Shown in pieces: positions 2,551 to 36,343 of a stretch of 36,343 nt of DNA. The translations under genes were made by a program, and so were the position numbers. Numbering within the stretch: position 1 is the stretch's first letter; every line of letters begins with the position of its first letter. Location: positions 1 through 36,343 of the IMG/VR virus record IMGVR_UViG_3300035666_000088, one strand, 5' to 3'. This DNA comes from a virus. The notes beneath the pieces are model-generated. The model did not search any database. It saw only the letters and a program-made list of their open reading frames with translations, and was not told the origin of the DNA.

Positions 2551-4446
2551 TTAAAGGTTAGCGGCATCCAAACGTGCCTTGAGTGAGAGAATTAACGCAT
2601 CTTGAACTTGTAATTTCTTAAGCAACACAACAGTCAAACGCTCATATTGGAAACCTTCAATTTCGCCAGCTACTCCACGAGTGACAAGTTCTTCAAAACC
2701 AGCTTCAGCCGCTTCATCAGCAATCAATCCTAAATGGTCTTTGGTTTTGTCATCACGTTCACATTTAGATTTATAACGAACAGGCCGCAATAAGTTAATG
2801 TCAAAATCTTCAACATCACGGATGTCTTGTTTGTATTTAAGGGCAGAAGTTGAACGATAGAAAAGTCCGTCACCATCTACGCCTACGTTGCCAGCAGTAG
2901 CTGTAGTGTTGTCACGCACACCAGTGCAATTAAAAACTCCGCCTGACTGAAACCATGCCCTTGGATTCCCATTGCCATCAGCCAGCACGATGTAGCCGCT
3001 TGCAGTGCGAATGTCTAGGCCGCCTCCGTTACCACTGAAACGACCAAGAATTGTATTGGCAGAACCAGTAGTAATTACGCTGCCAGTACTTTGACCAAGG
3101 AATGTATTGCTACCAGCCGCACCTTGTAATGCAAATCCAGCGCCTTCACCAATACAGGTGTTTGCGTCACCTGTTATTGCGGCGGCTCCATTAGAACCAG
3201 AACGAGAGCCAATAAAGACGTTATAAGAACCTGTTGTAACGCTATCGCCAGCTTCAAGTCCTAAAGCATTGTTGTTAATGCCTGTGGTGTTTGCATAAAG
3301 AGCCTGATAACCTACAGCGGTGTTGCTATTGGCTGTGGTGTTGGAGAACAGCGCACGATAACCAACGCCTACATTGTATGCGCCCGTAGTATTTGCAAAA
3401 AGAGCCTGTTGTCCTATGCCAGAGTTATAAGATGCAGTGGTATTGAGTTGCAAAGAACCTAAACCAAAAGCTGAGTTGTATTGACCAGTTGTATTTGAGA
3501 ACAAAGCCTTCCAACCCATAGCAGTGTTTTCTGCACCTGTGGTATTTGCATATCCCGCTTGATAGCCAACAGCGGTGTTGTTGGAAGCGGTAGTGTTTAA
3601 TCCAAGAGCTTGTCTACCTAATGCCGTGTTTTCACCGCCCGTGGTGTTGCTTGTTAATGCGCCATTACCCATTGCGATGTTGCTACCGCCTGTGGTGTTA
3701 GAGCCAAGAGTACCAACACCTATCGCTGAGTTTTCTGTGCCAGTTGTGTTGGCATACAGAGATTGATAACCGACAGCAGTGTTGTATGAGGCTGTGGTGT
3801 TGGAGGTAAGTGCCTGCGTACCGATGGCGGTATTATTAGCGCCTGTGGTGTTTGTAAAAAGAGCGTTAGTACCAAAGGCGTTATTGTTTCCGCCAGTAGT
3901 ATTGCTATACAAAGAATAGTTACCAACAGCAACACCGCCAACTGCGGTAGTGTTTGAACGTAATACGTCCCGACCAACTGCCACGTTGTCCGTTCCACTT
4001 GTATTGCCCAGTAAAGCACTTGCGCCAATAGCAGTATTGCTTGTTCCCGTTTGAGAACCTCCTGATAAAGCACTAGCACCCACCGCAGTATTGGTAGACA
4101 CAGCACCAGCACCACGGCCTACTGTTAGACCTTGAATAGAACCTGCACCAGTTACGCTCAAAGTGCTTGATGCGCTTAGAGTGGTAAAAGCACCAGAGTC
4201 TGGAGTGCTTGAGCCAATGGCAGTCGCATCAATAGTGCTAGATGCACCAGTAACCACCAATGTTCCCGCTACTGATAATGTCTTACCAGCGCCAACATTT
4301 AGGCCAACACTAGTACCAGTGCCTGCGGCAGCAAAGACAGCATCTAAACTGTCCAAGTCGGTATTGATCTTTGTACCCCATGTGTCGGTGGATGCACCAA
4401 CTTCTGGTTTGGTAAGTAATAGATTTGTGGTGGTTGAATCTGCCAT
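2551..4446 (-). CDS. Tail fibre with 17-residue repeats and S74 intramolecular chaperone
   Basis: This 631-residue protein probably forms the trimeric receptor-binding fibre. The N-terminus ([20 protein letters not shown]) should attach to the tail. Residues of about 119-472 are a run of about 20 units, mostly 17 residues with pattern NTAxGxxALxxNTTGxx, like the head repeats of trimeric adhesins. Residues of about 534-631 match the Peptidase_S74 (endosialidase-type) chaperone, starting [16 protein letters not shown] and ending in a helical coiled-coil; that family self-cleaves at a Ser near the domain start. The start has a GGGG ribosome site. Confidence 0.88.
3031..4092 (-). repeat. 51-bp coding repeats in tail fibre
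   Basis: Tandem 51-bp units encode the 17-residue NTAxG...NTTG motif. About 16 units have exactly this length, flanked by a few of 17-20 residues. Two residue types alternate at the loop ends (NTTG and NTTA). At DNA level the units are diverged but share gtggtgtt and similar blocks, so unequal recombination could alter fibre length. Confidence 0.85.
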
Positions 4447-4455
4447 TTTTTACCC

Positions 4456-5217
4456 CTATGCGGCTATTTGCCAAGTCTCGCTATTATCCGCAATTGCTGT
4501 CCAACTTTCACTGTTGTCACTAATTGCGGCCCATGTTTCTGATGTGTCTGTGATCGGTGTCCATGTCTCTGCATTGTCAGAGATTGCATTCCATGTCTCT
4601 GCCGTGTCACTCTCTGCCACCCATTTTAGATTGCCAGCAATCGTCATAGATGACTGGCAAGTGAAATTGATTGGAGTGCTTTGTCTTCTCTGGCCGTTGA
4701 CACTCATGCCAGACTCAGCCGCAATCAGCACAGACTGATTCACGATCACGCTGGTGGCCACAGTCATTGTGGCAAAGTCTTCAATCAGGATTTGAATCAG
4801 TGGGACCCTGACACCATTGACAGACATCGCGCTGGTATCGACCGAGGCAAATGCACCGATGGCCACTCTGGTGGCCGCCAGGCTCGCGCTAGATGTGGCC
4901 GCAAATGTTGATTTGCCTATGGCATAGCGCAAAGCGCTTGCAGACATGCTGCTGGTGCTAGATATCGTGGCCGAGGCATCGGCAACTATTTGCGCAGCAG
5001 CTGTTGCACCGCTAGACGCTGAAACCGAGAATGATGCTGTCTTGACCACATTGGCCGAGACAGTCTCTGAGCTAGAAGCAGAAACAGAAAACGCGCCTAT
5101 GCAGACGCGCCTTGCATTGATTGCAGCCGTGCTGGTGGCTGCAAGTGTGGCTGCTCCAAGGCTTACGCCATAGGAGTAATTGCCTCCACCATACGGGCCA
5201 AGACCATAGGCTGCCAT
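4456..5217 (-). CDS. Virion protein with Ser/Ala-rich body and C-terminal ETW repeats
   Basis: This 253-residue protein starts with a Gly/Tyr segment (MAAYGLGPYGGGNYSYG). A Ser/Ala/Thr-rich region with recurring SVSASS and RVAIGAF strings follows, likely beta-rich. The last 50 residues are five 10-residue repeats with core (D)(N/T)(S/A)E(T/S)W. Its place between the fibre and a minor tail protein implies a tail or appendage component. I do not recognise a defined family. The gene starts one base after the preceding stop. Confidence 0.75.
   Translation of the reverse strand: MAAYGLGPYGGGNYSYGVSLGAATLAATSTAAINARRVCIGAFSVSASSSETVSANVVKTASFSVSASSGATAAAQIVADASATISSTSSMSASALRYAIGKSTFAATSSASLAATRVAIGAFASVDTSAMSVNGVRVPLIQILIEDFATMTVATSVIVNQSVLIAAESGMSVNGQRRQSTPINFTCQSSMTIAGNLKWVAESDTAETWNAISDNAETWTPITDTSETWAAISDNSESWTAIADNSETWQIAA
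4459..4608 (-). repeat. Five 30-bp coding repeats (ETW decapeptides)
   Basis: The 3' end of the virion gene consists of five 30-bp units encoding DTAETWNAIS, DNAETWTPIT, DTSETWAAIS, DNSESWTAIA and DNSETWQIAA. The Trp spacing is exactly ten residues, as expected for short beta-strand or turn repeats. Confidence 0.9.
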
Positions 5218-16179: not shown

Positions 16180-16340
16180 ATTATCCCCACGATCTGGTTT
16201 ATATCCACCCATGTGTGCCAAACAATTGTGCCATCCAAGCTCATCAGCTTGCAAAACACCTTCGCCTCTTTAGCCTCATCAGTGTCTAAGACTATCCACT
16301 CCTGACCCTTTATCACCACTGTTGCCTGCTTCGTTTTCAT
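16176..16340 (-). CDS. Small protein leading the packaging operon (54 aa)
   Basis: ATG 16340 to TGA 16176 encodes MKTKQATVVIKGQEWIVLDT, then a short helix (DEAKEAKVFCKLM) and a beta-rich end with two Trp. A strong ribosome site (AAAGGAG) and a promoter-like TTGACA lie upstream, and the stop overlaps the next ATG. It is the first gene after the 335-bp gap and so may be a good marker for this transcript. No family recognised. Confidence 0.65.
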   Translation of the reverse strand: MKTKQATVVIKGQEWIVLDTDEAKEAKVFCKLMSLDGTIVWHTWVDINQIVGII

Positions 16341-16675
16341 TCGTTACTCCTTTGTTTGTGGAGATTGAATTGTGAAGTGTTTTTGCGTTTTATGTCAACT
16401 AGTGCAAAAGATTTTTTAAAAATTTTTTTTTGTAGGTGTTTAGTGCCGCCACAGTCGCCCCCGCCGCGACCGGCCACGGGGGGGGTCGCGGCCACCGACC
16501 GCCAGCCGGCCACCGCCACCGCTGGGTTGTCCACAGACTTTTGTCCACTTCTATCCACAGATTCCTGTGCATAACTTCATCAGTAACACCAGAGCATTAC
16601 TTTTTCTGTGGATATCTCAAAATCAACTTAACATAATGGACACTGTATAAAGTGACTGCAATCTTTGGTATTCGT
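16341..16675. other. Gene-free block with DnaA-like boxes, GC inverted repeat and A/T tract
   Basis: The 335-bp gap holds five DnaA-box-like nonamers: TTGTCCACA (16527), TTGTCCACT (16541), CTATCCACA (16551), TGTGCATAA (16566; reverse TTATGCACA fits the consensus) and TGTGGATAT (16607). Next to them are an inverted repeat GCCGCGACC (16463-16471) / GGTCGCGGC (16484-16492) with a run of eight G in the loop, and an A/T tract (16411-16433). It could be a second origin, a packaging-start region, or only a promoter. I see no convincing gene. Confidence 0.6.
16369..16398 (-). promoter_or_regulatory. Promoter candidate for the terminase/structural operon
   Basis: A perfect sigma70 -35 box TTGACA (16398-16393, minus strand) is followed after 18 bases by CACAAT (16374-16369; four of six matches to TATAAT). 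The predicted start would be some 25 bases before the first ATG at 16340. This suits host RNA polymerase, in keeping with no phage RNA polymerase being seen. Confidence 0.55.
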
Positions 16676-17191: not shown

Positions 17192-17552
17192 TCAGATAAT
17201 CCTCAATTGTTTTGATTGCTTCGGCAGCTGATCTTGCGACCACTGCCCGATAACCTTTTGCATTTAACTGCAAATTTACTGCACTTTGTTTGCCCGATAC
17301 CACTCCGGCCTTGGTCTTCATCTCCACAAACAGCGCATGAAACCCGTTTTTAGGCTCTAGGACACACAAATCAGGCATCCCTGCTAAAACCCCCTCAGAA
17401 TGCAGCCTTACGCGCTCTGAGGCCGTTCTATCGCCTCCATTCGGTATTGCCGCGATGATGATGTCCGGATAGAACGCACGAAAGTGCTGCACCACCTTGA
17501 CCTGGTCAATGTGTTCAATGCTTTTTCTTTTGCGTTTTAAGTCAACCACCAT
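17154..17552 (-). CDS. VRR-NUC domain nuclease
   Basis: This PD-(D/E)XK-type protein of about 132 residues has the VRR-NUC pattern IPNGGDRT, GVLAGMPDLCVL (catalytic Asp), HALFVEMKTKAG (Glu and Lys) and KQSAVNLQLNAKGYRAVVA. In phages such proteins resolve branched DNA before packaging or act in recombination. The start MVVDLKRKRK at 17552 is likely; it overlaps the upstream gene by 16 bp and the ribosome site GAGGA sits unusually close. GTG 17549 is an alternative. Placed between replication and packaging genes. Confidence 0.82.
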   Translation of the reverse strand: MVVDLKRKRKSIEHIDQVKVVQHFRAFYPDIIIAAIPNGGDRTASERVRLHSEGVLAGMPDLCVLEPKNGFHALFVEMKTKAGVVSGKQSAVNLQLNAKGYRAVVARSAAEAIKTIEDYLNGNTEKERKDIE

Positions 17553-17872
17553 TCCTCGGATTCTACTGCCGAGGGTTTGGCTTGGTACATGTGGCATCGG
17601 TGCTTGACATCGGTCGGGAATACGGCAAAGCCAGTTGGGCTGCACTGGTGTTCGGTCCATGTGACTGTTGCCCAACCATTCTTTATCTTTGCCTCTTTCA
17701 GCATCCACTGGAGTGGCTTTGCGTTGACTTTCCTGATCTTTTCCATCAGTTCTGCTGGCATGGACTTGCGCTGCTCTACAGCACTGCAATGCTTGCATTC
17801 ATGGCAAAAAACCCTGTCATCCCACTCATGTGGATAACTTGTGGATAACTGCTCAACTTGTTGGACCATCAT
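17537..17872 (-). CDS. Cysteine-containing protein beside the origin (111 aa)
   Basis: It starts MMVQQVEQLSTSYPHEWDDR, then has CHECKHC (two CxxC-like pairs) and a later HRCHMY, suggesting a metal site. It is soluble and ends near the VRR-NUC start. Two perfect DnaA boxes are encoded within its first codons (the LSTSYPH segment), so origin and gene overlap. The AGGAG ribosome site supports the start at 17872 or the ATG right after it. Function unknown. Confidence 0.7.
   Translation of the reverse strand: MMVQQVEQLSTSYPHEWDDRVFCHECKHCSAVEQRKSMPAELMEKIRKVNAKPLQWMLKEAKIKNGWATVTWTEHQCSPTGFAVFPTDVKHRCHMYQAKPSAVESEEWWLT
17829..17848 (-). promoter_or_regulatory. Two perfect DnaA boxes, one helical turn apart
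   Basis: TGTGGATAA occurs at 17829-17837 and 17840-17848 (reverse TTATCCACA, the exact consensus). The 11-bp spacing places both on the same face of the helix. A third exact copy is at 17972-17980. Three perfect boxes within 152 bp are unlikely by chance. Confidence 0.75.
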
Positions 17873-17894
17873 TTCTCCTCAAAAACAGTAAAAA

Positions 17895-18075
17895 GTAAAG
17901 CGGTATGGACAAAGGAAATTTACCGCTTTACCGCTTTACTTTTCACCATCACAAAACTGACCAGATTGGCCTGTGGATAAGTGGGTCTAAGGACCCCACT
18001 TATACCAACAGACCTGCCTTTATCTAAACAGGTATACCGCTTTACTACCGCTTTACTACCGCTTTACCGCTTTAC
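17895..18075. repeat. Iteron array: seven copies of an 11-bp repeat, candidate replication origin
   Basis: The exact 11-mer TACCGCTTTAC occurs at 17921, 17929, 18035, 18046, 18057 and 18065 on the plus strand and once inverted at 17895-17905. Copies at 18035, 18046 and 18057 are perfectly head-to-tail. The inverted copy and the 17929 copy extend to a 15-bp inverted repeat (17891-17905 / 17929-17943). A DnaA box (17972) and a stem-loop (17977-18003) lie between the two clusters. This is the build of iteron origins of plasmids and some phages. The last copy runs into the stop of the primase gene. Confidence 0.8.
17977..18003. repeat. Inverted repeat within the origin region
   Basis: ATAAGTGGGTC and GACCCCACTTAT pair with one bulged C around the loop TAAG. 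The hairpin starts within the third DnaA box. No T run follows on the plus strand, and on the minus strand the next bases are mixed, so a terminator is unlikely; an origin structure or protein site is more plausible. Confidence 0.6.
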
Positions 18076-20225
18076 TTTATTTGAACCCATCCAGTGCCTA
18101 CTTGGTCCTGACAGAAGCGCTGGAATATGGCCGCGCCAACCGCCCGTCTTGCGTAGCTTTGGTCGGCCTGCGGCACTGCATGGTAGATGTCTTGCCACTC
18201 CAGCTGGTGCATCCCTGCCAACTCCTTTGGCACTGATGGGCGCCCTGACCCTCTGCGCATGATGACAGCGCCCTTGGCGTTGATGATGGACTGGACAAAG
18301 TTGCAGGCGGCATCTGCGGCGTCTTGGACTTGCTGCTGCCGTTTATCGTTCTGCCGGTCATTGGCTGCCTGCCTGCGATCATCCTCTGATGACTTTTCTG
18401 GCACGACAAGCAGCACCATCTGCTCTTGGATGTCCCCGTCTTCATCCAGCACAGTGTCTGCAAAGACATCGGAGTTGAATTTGATCTCCCTGAAATTGGG
18501 CTGGTATCTGGTCTTGACCAGGCGCATGTATCTTGTTTTTGTTTCGTCTTCAAAGAGGACACCGGTCAATGTTGCATCACCTGTGAATGCTGATGCTCCA
18601 CGGGCTGTGGCATCTGAGTCGGCCTTGCTGATGGTCTTGTTGGTGTGTGTGATGATGCACACTGGCGTGTCCAGCTGGATATAGATAGTCTGCTTTAAGG
18701 CTGCAATATATGCACCGACTTCAGAGTTGTCATTCTCATTATCAATATCCATCGTGGCATTTGCCGTGTCTAATACTAATAATGGCCTTGTATTATCAAT
18801 CGTGTGATTTATTACATTATGTGCAAGCATAAGTAAATCCTTCACATTTGATCTTTTTGCATCAATAATGACAAACCATTGGGATAATGTTTGAGAGTTA
18901 ATCCCATAATGCCTTGCATATCCAGTTAATGTTCTTTCAACTTGGTCCGAGTCTTCAGTCACTATGATTGTTTTGCGTTTCTTAGTGGCTGTGAGTTCGC
19001 AGTCCTTGGCCTTAATCCCTGCCATGACCATGCACAGAGAGATCACTGCTGTGGTCTTGCCGATGCCAGGCTGACCGGCCAGCACCATGAAGCTGTGCGC
19101 CCAAAAGCCTTTGACCATGTAGCGGATGGGCTTGATGGCGCCAATCGTTAGCTGGCGCTCTGGCCAGCCTTGTGGTGCGTCTTGGGCCACTGGCGCAGCT
19201 GGCGCCTGTGCCTGGCTGATCACAGCTGCAAAGTCTTCCACCGCTGACTTGCGCTCGGACTGCTTTGTTGGCGGCTCCCAGCCAGCGTCTTTAGCGTGTT
19301 TGAACAGTGTGCCAATGCCAACACCTTTGCCCTGGTGAAAGCTCTTCCAGTGGACTTCAATGTCCTTTGTGCCGGCAAACTTGGCGCCAGCCATGGACCA
19401 TGTCATCCATGGGCCAAGGCCTGCCTCGCCAAATTCGGTGTGCAGCGCTTGGCCGATCTCGATCCACTGGTCATAGTCGCAGTCTGGGGAAATGTGGTGC
19501 AAAGCCTTGATGGCACGATCAATGTCGCTGTCTTCAATCCTTGAGCCTAATTGGGTGAAGTCAAATGATTGTGATGGTGGTGCAGTTGGCTTTGGCTCTT
19601 GCAGCTGGTGCTGCTCGATGATTCCCCAATCTTTGAGTAAATCGTAGAGGTCTACGGCCTCTTGAAATTCACCGGCCACGGCGTTGCCGGAAAGTAGCAC
19701 TGACTTGCCTGCACTGTTTGGTAGGCCAAATACTTCTAGCTCTTGGCCGCCGCCGAGCTTGTATTTTGGCAGCACTTGGTCAGATTCTTTGGGTGGTGAG
19801 ACCCATAAGAAGACATGCCGGCCACGGCCACTGACTGACACTTCGGTCAGCATGTTGTTGGCTTTGACGAATTTCGCCATGCGCTGGATGGCCACATTGG
19901 TGGGGCCTGATGCGTGTTTCATATCCACATCGAGGCAGACCAGATAGTCGCCTGATGGGCTGATGATGGGGCGCTGCTGGACTAGGCCAAGGTATTGGCC
20001 GTGGGGCGCATCTTCCATGGACCAGATGTCTTCGGCACTGTAGAGGTCTGATGAGTCGGTGTCCCGTGCCACGCCTTGGCCGGATCGCTTGAATGGAATC
20101 TTTTTGCTGCCTTGCAGGGCAAAGGTACAAAAGACAGCATCAGGGGCGACTGCACCTATCTTGCAGGCCACACTTTGGGACTGCTGAAATACATTGTTTT
20201 GGGGTGTTTCAGTTATGATTGACAC
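18072..20225 (-). CDS. Primase-polymerase/helicase fusion (AEP, PriCT, RecA-like)
   Basis: A replicative protein of about 717 residues (726 if the ATG at 20252 is used). An archaeo-eukaryotic primase domain comes first, with CLDVDMKH (the DxD pair), SGRGRHVFLW and ELEVFG. Next is a PriCT-2-like helical domain (IDRAIKALHHISPDCDYDQW onward). The C-terminal RecA-type ATPase has Walker A GQPGIGKT and LLVLDTANATMD. It can thus prime, perhaps polymerise, and unwind. Domain order and length resemble the NrS-1 phage primase-polymerase. GTG 20225 has a good AAAGGA ribosome site; ATG 20252 has none. The iteron region lies directly after its stop. Confidence 0.88.
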   Translation of the reverse strand: MSIITETPQNNVFQQSQSVACKIGAVAPDAVFCTFALQGSKKIPFKRSGQGVARDTDSSDLYSAEDIWSMEDAPHGQYLGLVQQRPIISPSGDYLVCLDVDMKHASGPTNVAIQRMAKFVKANNMLTEVSVSGRGRHVFLWVSPPKESDQVLPKYKLGGGQELEVFGLPNSAGKSVLLSGNAVAGEFQEAVDLYDLLKDWGIIEQHQLQEPKPTAPPSQSFDFTQLGSRIEDSDIDRAIKALHHISPDCDYDQWIEIGQALHTEFGEAGLGPWMTWSMAGAKFAGTKDIEVHWKSFHQGKGVGIGTLFKHAKDAGWEPPTKQSERKSAVEDFAAVISQAQAPAAPVAQDAPQGWPERQLTIGAIKPIRYMVKGFWAHSFMVLAGQPGIGKTTAVISLCMVMAGIKAKDCELTATKKRKTIIVTEDSDQVERTLTGYARHYGINSQTLSQWFVIIDAKRSNVKDLLMLAHNVINHTIDNTRPLLVLDTANATMDIDNENDNSEVGAYIAALKQTIYIQLDTPVCIITHTNKTISKADSDATARGASAFTGDATLTGVLFEDETKTRYMRLVKTRYQPNFREIKFNSDVFADTVLDEDGDIQEQMVLLVVPEKSSEDDRRQAANDRQNDKRQQQVQDAADAACNFVQSIINAKGAVIMRRGSGRPSVPKELAGMHQLEWQDIYHAVPQADQSYARRAVGAAIFQRFCQDQVGTGWVQIK

Positions 20226-20277
20226 TGAAATTCCTTTGGTTTGGGGTTTCATTTAGTTGCCATGAGAGTTGAACTTT

Positions 20278-36130: not shown

Positions 36131-36343
36131 TGATTAAATCCCTCGCTTCGTTATATGCGTCAATACAGGCATTGAGCTGCGCTGTGTTCCGATCCCCTTG
36201 TGCCACTATTTCGGCAATGGCTTGGAGGGTTGCTCGCTCGGCATCAGAAGCCGTGTCAGGCGCTCTGTCAGGTTGACTTCCTGTTTCTTTGCTATCTGGG
36301 GCGGCAGGGGTGGCAGCTGTGGGGGCTGGTACACAACTTGGGG
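36117..36343 (-). CDS. Rz-like i-spanin, 3' part (5' end at 433 after the join)
   Basis: The C-terminal portion of the i-spanin, ending at TGA 36119-36117. With base 1 joined to 36184, the gene has 501 bp and no frameshift. The copy in 36185-36343 differs from 1-159 by Ser to Pro, Thr to Ala and Ala to Thr in the Pro/Ala linker, all from first-codon-position transitions. Confidence 0.8.
   Translation of the reverse strand, partial: PSCVPAPTAATPAAPDSKETGSQPDRAPDTASDAERATLQAIAEIVAQGDRNTAQLNACIDAYNEARDLINGKR
36185..36343. repeat. Terminal overlap, right copy (matches 1-159)
   Basis: Same 159-bp stretch as at the left end, with T at 36311, C at 36326 and G at 36329. It includes a partial second copy of Rz1 (36206-36343), identical in protein sequence to the full gene over its length. 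Confidence 0.9.
36206..36343 (-). CDS. Rz1 spanin, second partial copy
   Basis: The C-terminal 45 residues of the Rz1 lipoprotein (from PQVVYQPPQ onward) are duplicated by the terminal overlap. The three base differences fall in third codon positions (TAT/TAC, CAA/CAG, CCG/CCA), so the protein is unchanged. It is a boundary artefact of the window rather than a separate gene. Confidence 0.75.
   Translation of the reverse strand, partial: PQVVYQPPQLPPLPPQIAKKQEVNLTERLTRLLMPSEQPSKPLPK

Follow-up and report, generated by a model that had tools for sequence, protein, structure and literature searches.

The sequence analysed here, IMGVR_UViG_3300035666_000088, is a stretch of 36,343 bp from a podovirus-like phage, and the whole of it is called the window below. 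The first and last 159 bp of it (1-159 and 36185-36343) overlap, being 98% identical with 3 mismatches. The record therefore seems to be a circular map of about 36.18 kb that was read slightly past its starting point, and to represent a complete or near-complete genome. Almost all genes of the window are carried on the minus strand. Along the gene direction, a SNF2-like helicase, an exonuclease and a 726-aa primase-helicase (18072-20252, minus strand) are followed by a repeat array, a 111-aa ORF belonging to no family (17537-17872, minus strand), a VRR-NUC gene and the small terminase gene, with the large terminase, an SU10-type portal and the capsid gene further along. The array fills the gap after the primase-helicase gene. 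No match to a known RNA family was obtained within the window, and among the ORFs scanned there neither a plasmid Rep protein family nor a separate iteron-binding gene was recognised.

The array is built from the 11-mer TACCGCTTTAC, seven exact copies of which, starting at 17895 (minus strand) and at 17921, 17929, 18035, 18046, 18057 and 18065 (plus strand), span 181 bp. Counted in the gene direction, iteron 1 (18065-18075, plus strand; GTAAAGCGGTA in the gene direction) holds the stop codon of the primase-helicase gene and is overlapped at an 8-bp offset by iteron 2 (18057-18067, plus strand), after which come iterons 3 (18046-18056) and 4 (18035-18045), both on the plus strand. Iteron 5 (18024-18034, minus strand) is an eighth, diverged and inverted copy, reading CTAAACAGGTA on the plus strand and forming a palindrome with iteron 4. 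Iterons 6 (17929-17939) and 7 (17921-17931), again on the plus strand, are offset from each other by 8 bp, and iteron 8 (17895-17905, minus strand) is inverted. The start-to-start spacings of the direct copies are 8, 106, 11, 11 and 8: three copies stand head-to-tail at 11 bp, two pairs share 3 bp, and the pattern beneath the overlaps is GTA-N5-GTA in steps of 8 and 11 bp. An inverted repeat of 15 bp, AAAAGTAAAGCGGTA/TACCGCTTTACTTTT, lies at 17891-17905 and 17929-17943. An earlier description made from the letters alone (the sequence-only reading) had reported seven copies in about 180 bp, six direct and one inverted, three of them head-to-tail, as well as the 15-bp inverted repeat; all of these are present where it placed them, while the 8-bp-offset pairs and the diverged eighth copy had escaped it. 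The genome-wide count also went its way, as no copy of the 11-mer, whether exact or with a single mismatch, lies outside the array anywhere in the 36,343 bp of the window. In shuffled sequence, the 11-mer occurred 0.17 times on average and never seven times. Chance repeats are thus ruled out by the shuffles and by the uniqueness in the genome, and what is found is the arrangement of an iteron origin, with direct repeats at regular, helical-turn-like spacing confined to one site.

Three exact DnaA boxes (TTATCCACA, minus strand) share the same 250 bp as the iterons, as is also the case in iteron origins. The one at 17972-17980 lies within a hairpin stem, the one at 17840-17848 falls in the opening codons of the 111-aa ORF, and the one at 17829-17837 starts 11 bp from the latter, as had been noted before. 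They are the only exact boxes of the genome (0.25 expected), where a box is an exact match to TTATCCACA, although the DnaA of the host may have a different specificity. The hairpin itself is the stem-loop already seen beside the iterons; it occupies 17969-18013 (minus strand), and the DnaA box sits on the 3' side of its stem, in the manner of an A-site.

Relatives of the locus were collected by scans of viral contigs, which gave about 115 loci with the primase-helicase gene, and the phage record MW202879 (Manatee Spring) was added; one more distant locus, L271, represents iteron type E. A profile-based rescan of viral contigs returned mostly the same contigs, and a scan of genome contigs added a single relative; the MAG holding it bears the label Acidimicrobium, which was not taken as a host assignment. 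Two loci that share a 19-mer but encode none of the tested genes of the window, L110 and L115, were left out. All loci reaching far enough behind the primase-helicase gene keep one layout, in which iterons at the end of the gene are followed by an inverted copy, the DnaA-box hairpin and a second group of iterons, and the next ORF begins with one or two DnaA boxes. This holds for 82 loci of clades A-C, about 32 of clade D and the type E locus, so the array, which had been called unusual for such a phage, is no one-off: about 100 related phage sequences, close and distant, carry it. None of the papers in the collection searched describes the origin of this phage group.

The iteron sequence itself differs by lineage, being GTAAANNGGTA in type A, GTAATNCGGTA in type B, CTAATNCGGAA in type C and TCGNNGNNACC in type D. 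Of 660 counted copies, inverted and intragenic ones included, 657 fit the A, B or C type of their own genome, although related sequences do not contribute independent events. Iteron 5 is present in all complete A-C relatives except L091. Slippage is unable to homogenise dispersed or inverted copies, and a shared sequence-specific binding protein would be the natural explanation. In many relatives one extra iteron, which the window does not have, lies within the coding sequence of the 111-aa ORF, and the residues it encodes vary with the type (CSKAV in A, CSNAV in B). This intragenic copy is found at about +290 from the primase-helicase stop (e.g. in L016, L056, L072 and L196), as if a DNA site constrained the protein. 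In L110, one of the loci left out, an intergenic-looking region (4350-4750) contains inverted arrays of TAAAGCGG/TTACTGCA-like 8-mers that resemble the core of the type A/B iteron.

The hairpin was compared across the same loci. Folding gave a stem-loop with the DnaA box in the 3' arm in all clades. Six of the nine consensus stem pairs have changed on both sides, and two compensatory changes fall inside the DnaA box (T-A to C-G in L030, A-T to C-G in L229). Arms scored 10-13.5 when paired with their own partner; exchanging them between clades A-C and clade D lowered the score to 2-7. The DnaA box is retained in almost every hairpin despite changes elsewhere in the stem, and one or two more exact boxes follow the hairpin at fixed positions. 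The feature that marks the A-site of R6K, a DnaA box in the stem of a structure-conserved hairpin, is thus found here. Across 18 genomes, exact DnaA boxes occur almost only at the array site and in a second cluster about 1.2 kb downstream (16527-16615 in the window). In most clade A-C genomes, this second cluster has exact boxes and usually a perfect DnaA-box hairpin, GTGGATAAGTCGTTATCCAC. The copy in the window is degenerate and MW202879 (clade D) has none, and the second cluster is therefore accessory at most. Its surroundings (window 16255-16675, and L272-L281), which lie downstream of the small terminase gene, combine the boxes with an inverted region rich in C/G and with a poly-A/T tract. 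Behind its small terminase gene, MW202879 (L122) has a resolvase annotated as gamma-delta-type (966-1634); in the window no such gene was seen there.

The circular detrended cumulative GC skew has its minimum 114-473 bp from the hairpin box in all nine complete or near-complete genomes, so the skew also places the origin where the sequence-only reading had put it. This minimum is seen although the genes on both sides of it run in one direction; GC skew can reflect local gene content. The raw cumulative minimum after rotation to the site was discarded, as it is biased by net skew. An AT-rich unwinding element beside the iterons was searched for and none was found within -150 to +250 bp; near the site there is no 60-nt window of 70% A+T, and even the least stable 60-mer of that interval is more stable than 600-2,700 other positions of the genome. 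The least stable 60 bp of several whole genomes lie about 0.2-0.3 kb past the second DnaA-box cluster, at +1,530. The site had been called a plasmid-type iteron origin. The comparison bears out an iteron origin, and the term plasmid-type is half right, no plasmid Rep family having been recognised and no AT-rich element standing beside the iterons, while the initiator indicated by the evidence is the AEP primase/RecA-type helicase protein of the phage itself.

The 726-aa protein, the proposed initiator, combines an archaeo-eukaryotic (AEP) primase with a RecA-type helicase in a single ORF. Pfam matches were PriCT_2 (1.3e-18), AAA_25 (4e-17) and, weakly, KaiC/DnaB_C, and no SF3 helicase family matched the protein. 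The model of the N-terminal part matches the primase-polymerase of phage NrS-1 (Foldseek E 1e-8), and the order of AEP domain, PriCT and RepA/DnaB-type ATPase is like that of PrimQH. The full-length model is poor in the helicase region. A model of the C-terminal part has a mean pLDDT of 80 and a helix-turn-helix-like core with strands; structure searches with it gave no confident match (Foldseek best E 3.6; VIA-align Z <=3.7), and a sequence search of solved structures with the primase-helicase returned weak, irrelevant matches only. A winged-helix fold, such as marks the C-terminus in the P4 alpha family and in PrimQH-like proteins, is thus a possibility for this part.

This C-terminal part follows the iteron type. 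One-nearest-neighbour (1-NN) prediction of the type scored 0.44-0.67 over most of residues 1-344, was partial in the helicase part and reached 1.00 for residues 608-726. Within 608-726, the fixed differences numbered 14 of 14 between types A and B and 43 of 43 between B and C, and residues 1-340 have none for any pair of types. Natural chimeras set the boundary of the tracking segment at residues 608-726: L056, L057 and L059 have a C-like helicase and L040 an A-like one, and all four combine it with a C-terminus and iterons of type B. In seven other genes, the iteron types have diverged little or not at all. For TerL, VRR-NUC, the exonuclease, SNF2 and ssb, A-C identity equals identity within types (exonuclease.88 within A,.89 within C and.88 between them; TerL.95-.97 within and between types), and TerS predicts the type at.25-.75. 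The 111-aa ORF predicts types A and C at 0.91 and 0.93 and type B at 0.50, and L040 and L057 have an exchanged copy of it. The A-C identity averages 43-58% for residues 608-706, 77% for the 111-aa ORF and 75-97% for other genes. The repeat type is thus shared perfectly only with residues 608-726 of the primase-helicase, and other genes recombine freely. The C-terminal codons adjoin the array, and physical linkage adds to the co-segregation, but linkage alone would not drive the divergence of one domain. Residues 608-726 are therefore the best candidate for the reader, and the iterons are likely read by the C-terminus of the primase-helicase.

We consider the array region very likely to be the replication origin of this phage. 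The whole reading, in which a podovirus-like phage uses its own primase-helicase as the initiator at an origin assisted by DnaA and equipped with an A-site-like hairpin, we hold at a probability of roughly 0.8. The comparison of sequences supports it by the conserved layout, the concerted change of the iterons, their co-segregation with residues 608-726, the covariation in the hairpin and the GC-skew minimum; physical binding, melting, priming, recruitment of DnaA and the direction of replication we infer. The C-terminal domain (about residues 608-726) would bind the 11-bp iterons directly downstream of its own gene and assemble there, and the RecA-type helicase and AEP primase domains would then unwind and prime. 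Host DnaA would bind the boxes. The hairpin may be extruded as a single strand, so that the DnaA box in its stem could act as an R6K-like A-site (ABC primosome) and the hairpin could serve as a priming or helicase-loading site. Such a role of the hairpin is plausible.

The array lies between genes of the replication operon, and its iterons 6-8 immediately precede the site at which ribosomes would bind for the 111-aa ORF. Such a position would also suit transcription control of the operon of the 111-aa ORF, VRR-NUC and small terminase, with the hairpin as a terminator or attenuator, and many iteron systems autoregulate too. We regard this explanation as improbable, since the DnaA boxes and the GC-skew minimum would be left unexplained and the iteron type tracks the C-terminus of the primase-helicase, which none of the seven other tested genes matches as closely. 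Moreover, no T-run follows the hairpin, and promoter and terminator scans found nothing there and gave totals no higher than in shuffles; an intrinsic terminator at the hairpin is thus unsupported. Iterons are also able to act in partition or copy control, and the terminase genes, small and large, lie downstream, so the repeats might be a packaging (pac) or a partition/incompatibility site. The repeat type tracks neither TerS nor TerL, and such a site would again leave the DnaA boxes and the skew unexplained, which makes it very improbable.

An origin whose iterons are read by another phage protein, such as a small one encoded on the plus strand or the product of the 111-aa ORF, would reduce the association with the C-terminus to hitch-hiking by linkage. 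Residues 608-726 do adjoin the array, and the 111-aa ORF on its other side tracks types A and C fairly well. Its failure for type B, its exchange in two of the chimeras and the far lower A-C identity in residues 608-706 than in any other gene argue against this explanation, as does the C-terminal origin reader of P4, pRN1 and PrimQH-type proteins (PMC4234260, PMC5862659), and we think it unlikely. As the main alternative for this part, the hairpin would serve the AEP primase of the phage as a priming site, comparable to ssiA/ssiB of RSF1010 for RepB', and its match to a DnaA box would be incidental. The protein joins an AEP-like fold to a RepA/DnaB-type helicase, a domain set that is split over separate RSF1010 proteins (PMC4234260). 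We find it doubtful but less so than the other alternatives, since the DnaA box was kept while the stem changed around it and further exact boxes stand at fixed positions.

The preferred reading, an origin served by its own primase-helicase with help from DnaA, was compared with known systems. The helicase of P4 alpha is of the SF3 family. P4 alpha is also a single multifunctional primase-helicase and a self-contained initiator whose C-terminal origin-binding domain reads repeats, but its primase is of the TOPRIM type, not AEP (PMC4234260). In the phage protein, PriCT_2 and an AEP-like primase are joined instead to a RecA-type helicase (AAA_25), and its origin has DnaA boxes and a DnaA-box hairpin; having neither an SF3 helicase nor a TOPRIM/DnaG-type primase, it falls outside the P4 alpha family. 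In pRN1 ORF904 and Bordetella phage BIP-1, an AEP primase, a helicase and a C-terminal DNA-binding domain are likewise followed just downstream by a stem-loop origin (PMC4234260), whereas their helicase is SF3 and iterons are lacking. The window has a stem-loop, but its RecA-type helicase, iterons and DnaA boxes set it apart from that origin type. Since the helicase is not SF3, the system is of neither the P4 nor the pRN1 type.

The PrimQH proteins of the PrimPol-PV1 supergroup share the set of AEP, PriCT, RepA/DnaB-type helicase and a C-terminal domain, the likeness being one of domain composition, and their C-terminus has been proposed as an origin reader as a prediction only (PMC5862659). 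PLE, the Vibrio cholerae phage satellite, has an iteron origin that covaries with the DNA-binding domain of its RepA, and experimental swaps have been made with this pair (PMC8263062). Covariation limited to the DNA-binding domain and swapping of modules are common to both systems, but PLE uses semi-palindromic iterons of about 30 bp and an N-terminal RepA_N domain, whereas here the iterons are of 11 bp, the domain is C-terminal in a primase-helicase, and a whole phage family is involved. The oriV of RSF1010 also combines iterons and hairpins with a hexameric helicase and an element-encoded primase (PMC4234260). Its functions are divided among three proteins, RepA, RepB' and RepC; with primase and helicase in one polypeptide and no separate iteron-binding gene recognised among the ORFs scanned, the phage origin is not of the RSF1010 type.

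The A-site hairpin of the ABC primosome is attributed to R6K. The likeness of the phage hairpin to it is the DnaA box in a hairpin; here it occurs in a phage and beside iterons, and DnaA-dependent loading is putative. The passage of PMC6127211 that cites Masai 1990 describes the A-site as a single-strand hairpin with a DnaA box at which DnaA loads DnaB. The origin appears to work like those of P4 or PLE with an R6K-type DnaA-box hairpin, as a member of neither family; what it has in common with the P4 alpha, pRN1/BIP-1 and PLE RepA systems is a self-contained initiator whose origin-reading domain stands apart.

A wider interpretation is offered tentatively. These freshwater phages may carry interchangeable replicon types in the form of a swappable cassette (C-terminal reader, cognate 11-bp iterons and DnaA-box hairpin) that has diverged sharply among genomes whose other parts recombine freely, perhaps kept diverse by selection, and their initiation may join an AEP primase-helicase-initiator of one polypeptide with a host-DnaA ABC-primosome hairpin. 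Such selection could, for example, act through evasion of parasites that target the origin, or of rival phages that infect the same cell. To our knowledge, origins and initiators of uncultured phages have almost never been identified from sequence. The roughly 100 natural sequences amount to a ready-made domain-swap experiment, in which a 120-residue domain and an 11-bp repeat co-vary and the rest recombines, and the DNA-recognition code of an AEP primase-helicase becomes directly testable with short oligonucleotides. They also support the prediction of an origin-reading C-terminus in such proteins (PMC5862659), supply a candidate for an A-site-type DnaA-box hairpin carried by a phage, and raise the question of why several incompatible replicon types persist in one phage gene pool.

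More distant phages with a PriCT-2 primase were also inspected. No repeat array was found near the primase gene of phiHSIC, and other arrays were found near that of vB_PstS-pAN, Torfinnsbu and Acjo_20. In Acjo_20 (L299, 3072-3153), repeats of AGCGTTAC in 8-bp steps precede the PriCT-2 primase gene, and in Torfinnsbu (L300, 5836-5872) repeats of AACAAAGC, also in 8-bp steps, follow it. In Pseudomonas phage vB_PstS-pAN (L301, 6158-6484), dense direct and inverted repeats of GTGTTGGGT come directly after the PriCT-2 gene, and these are probably a further origin of the same general kind. Repeats next to the initiator gene are therefore not confined to this group of phages.
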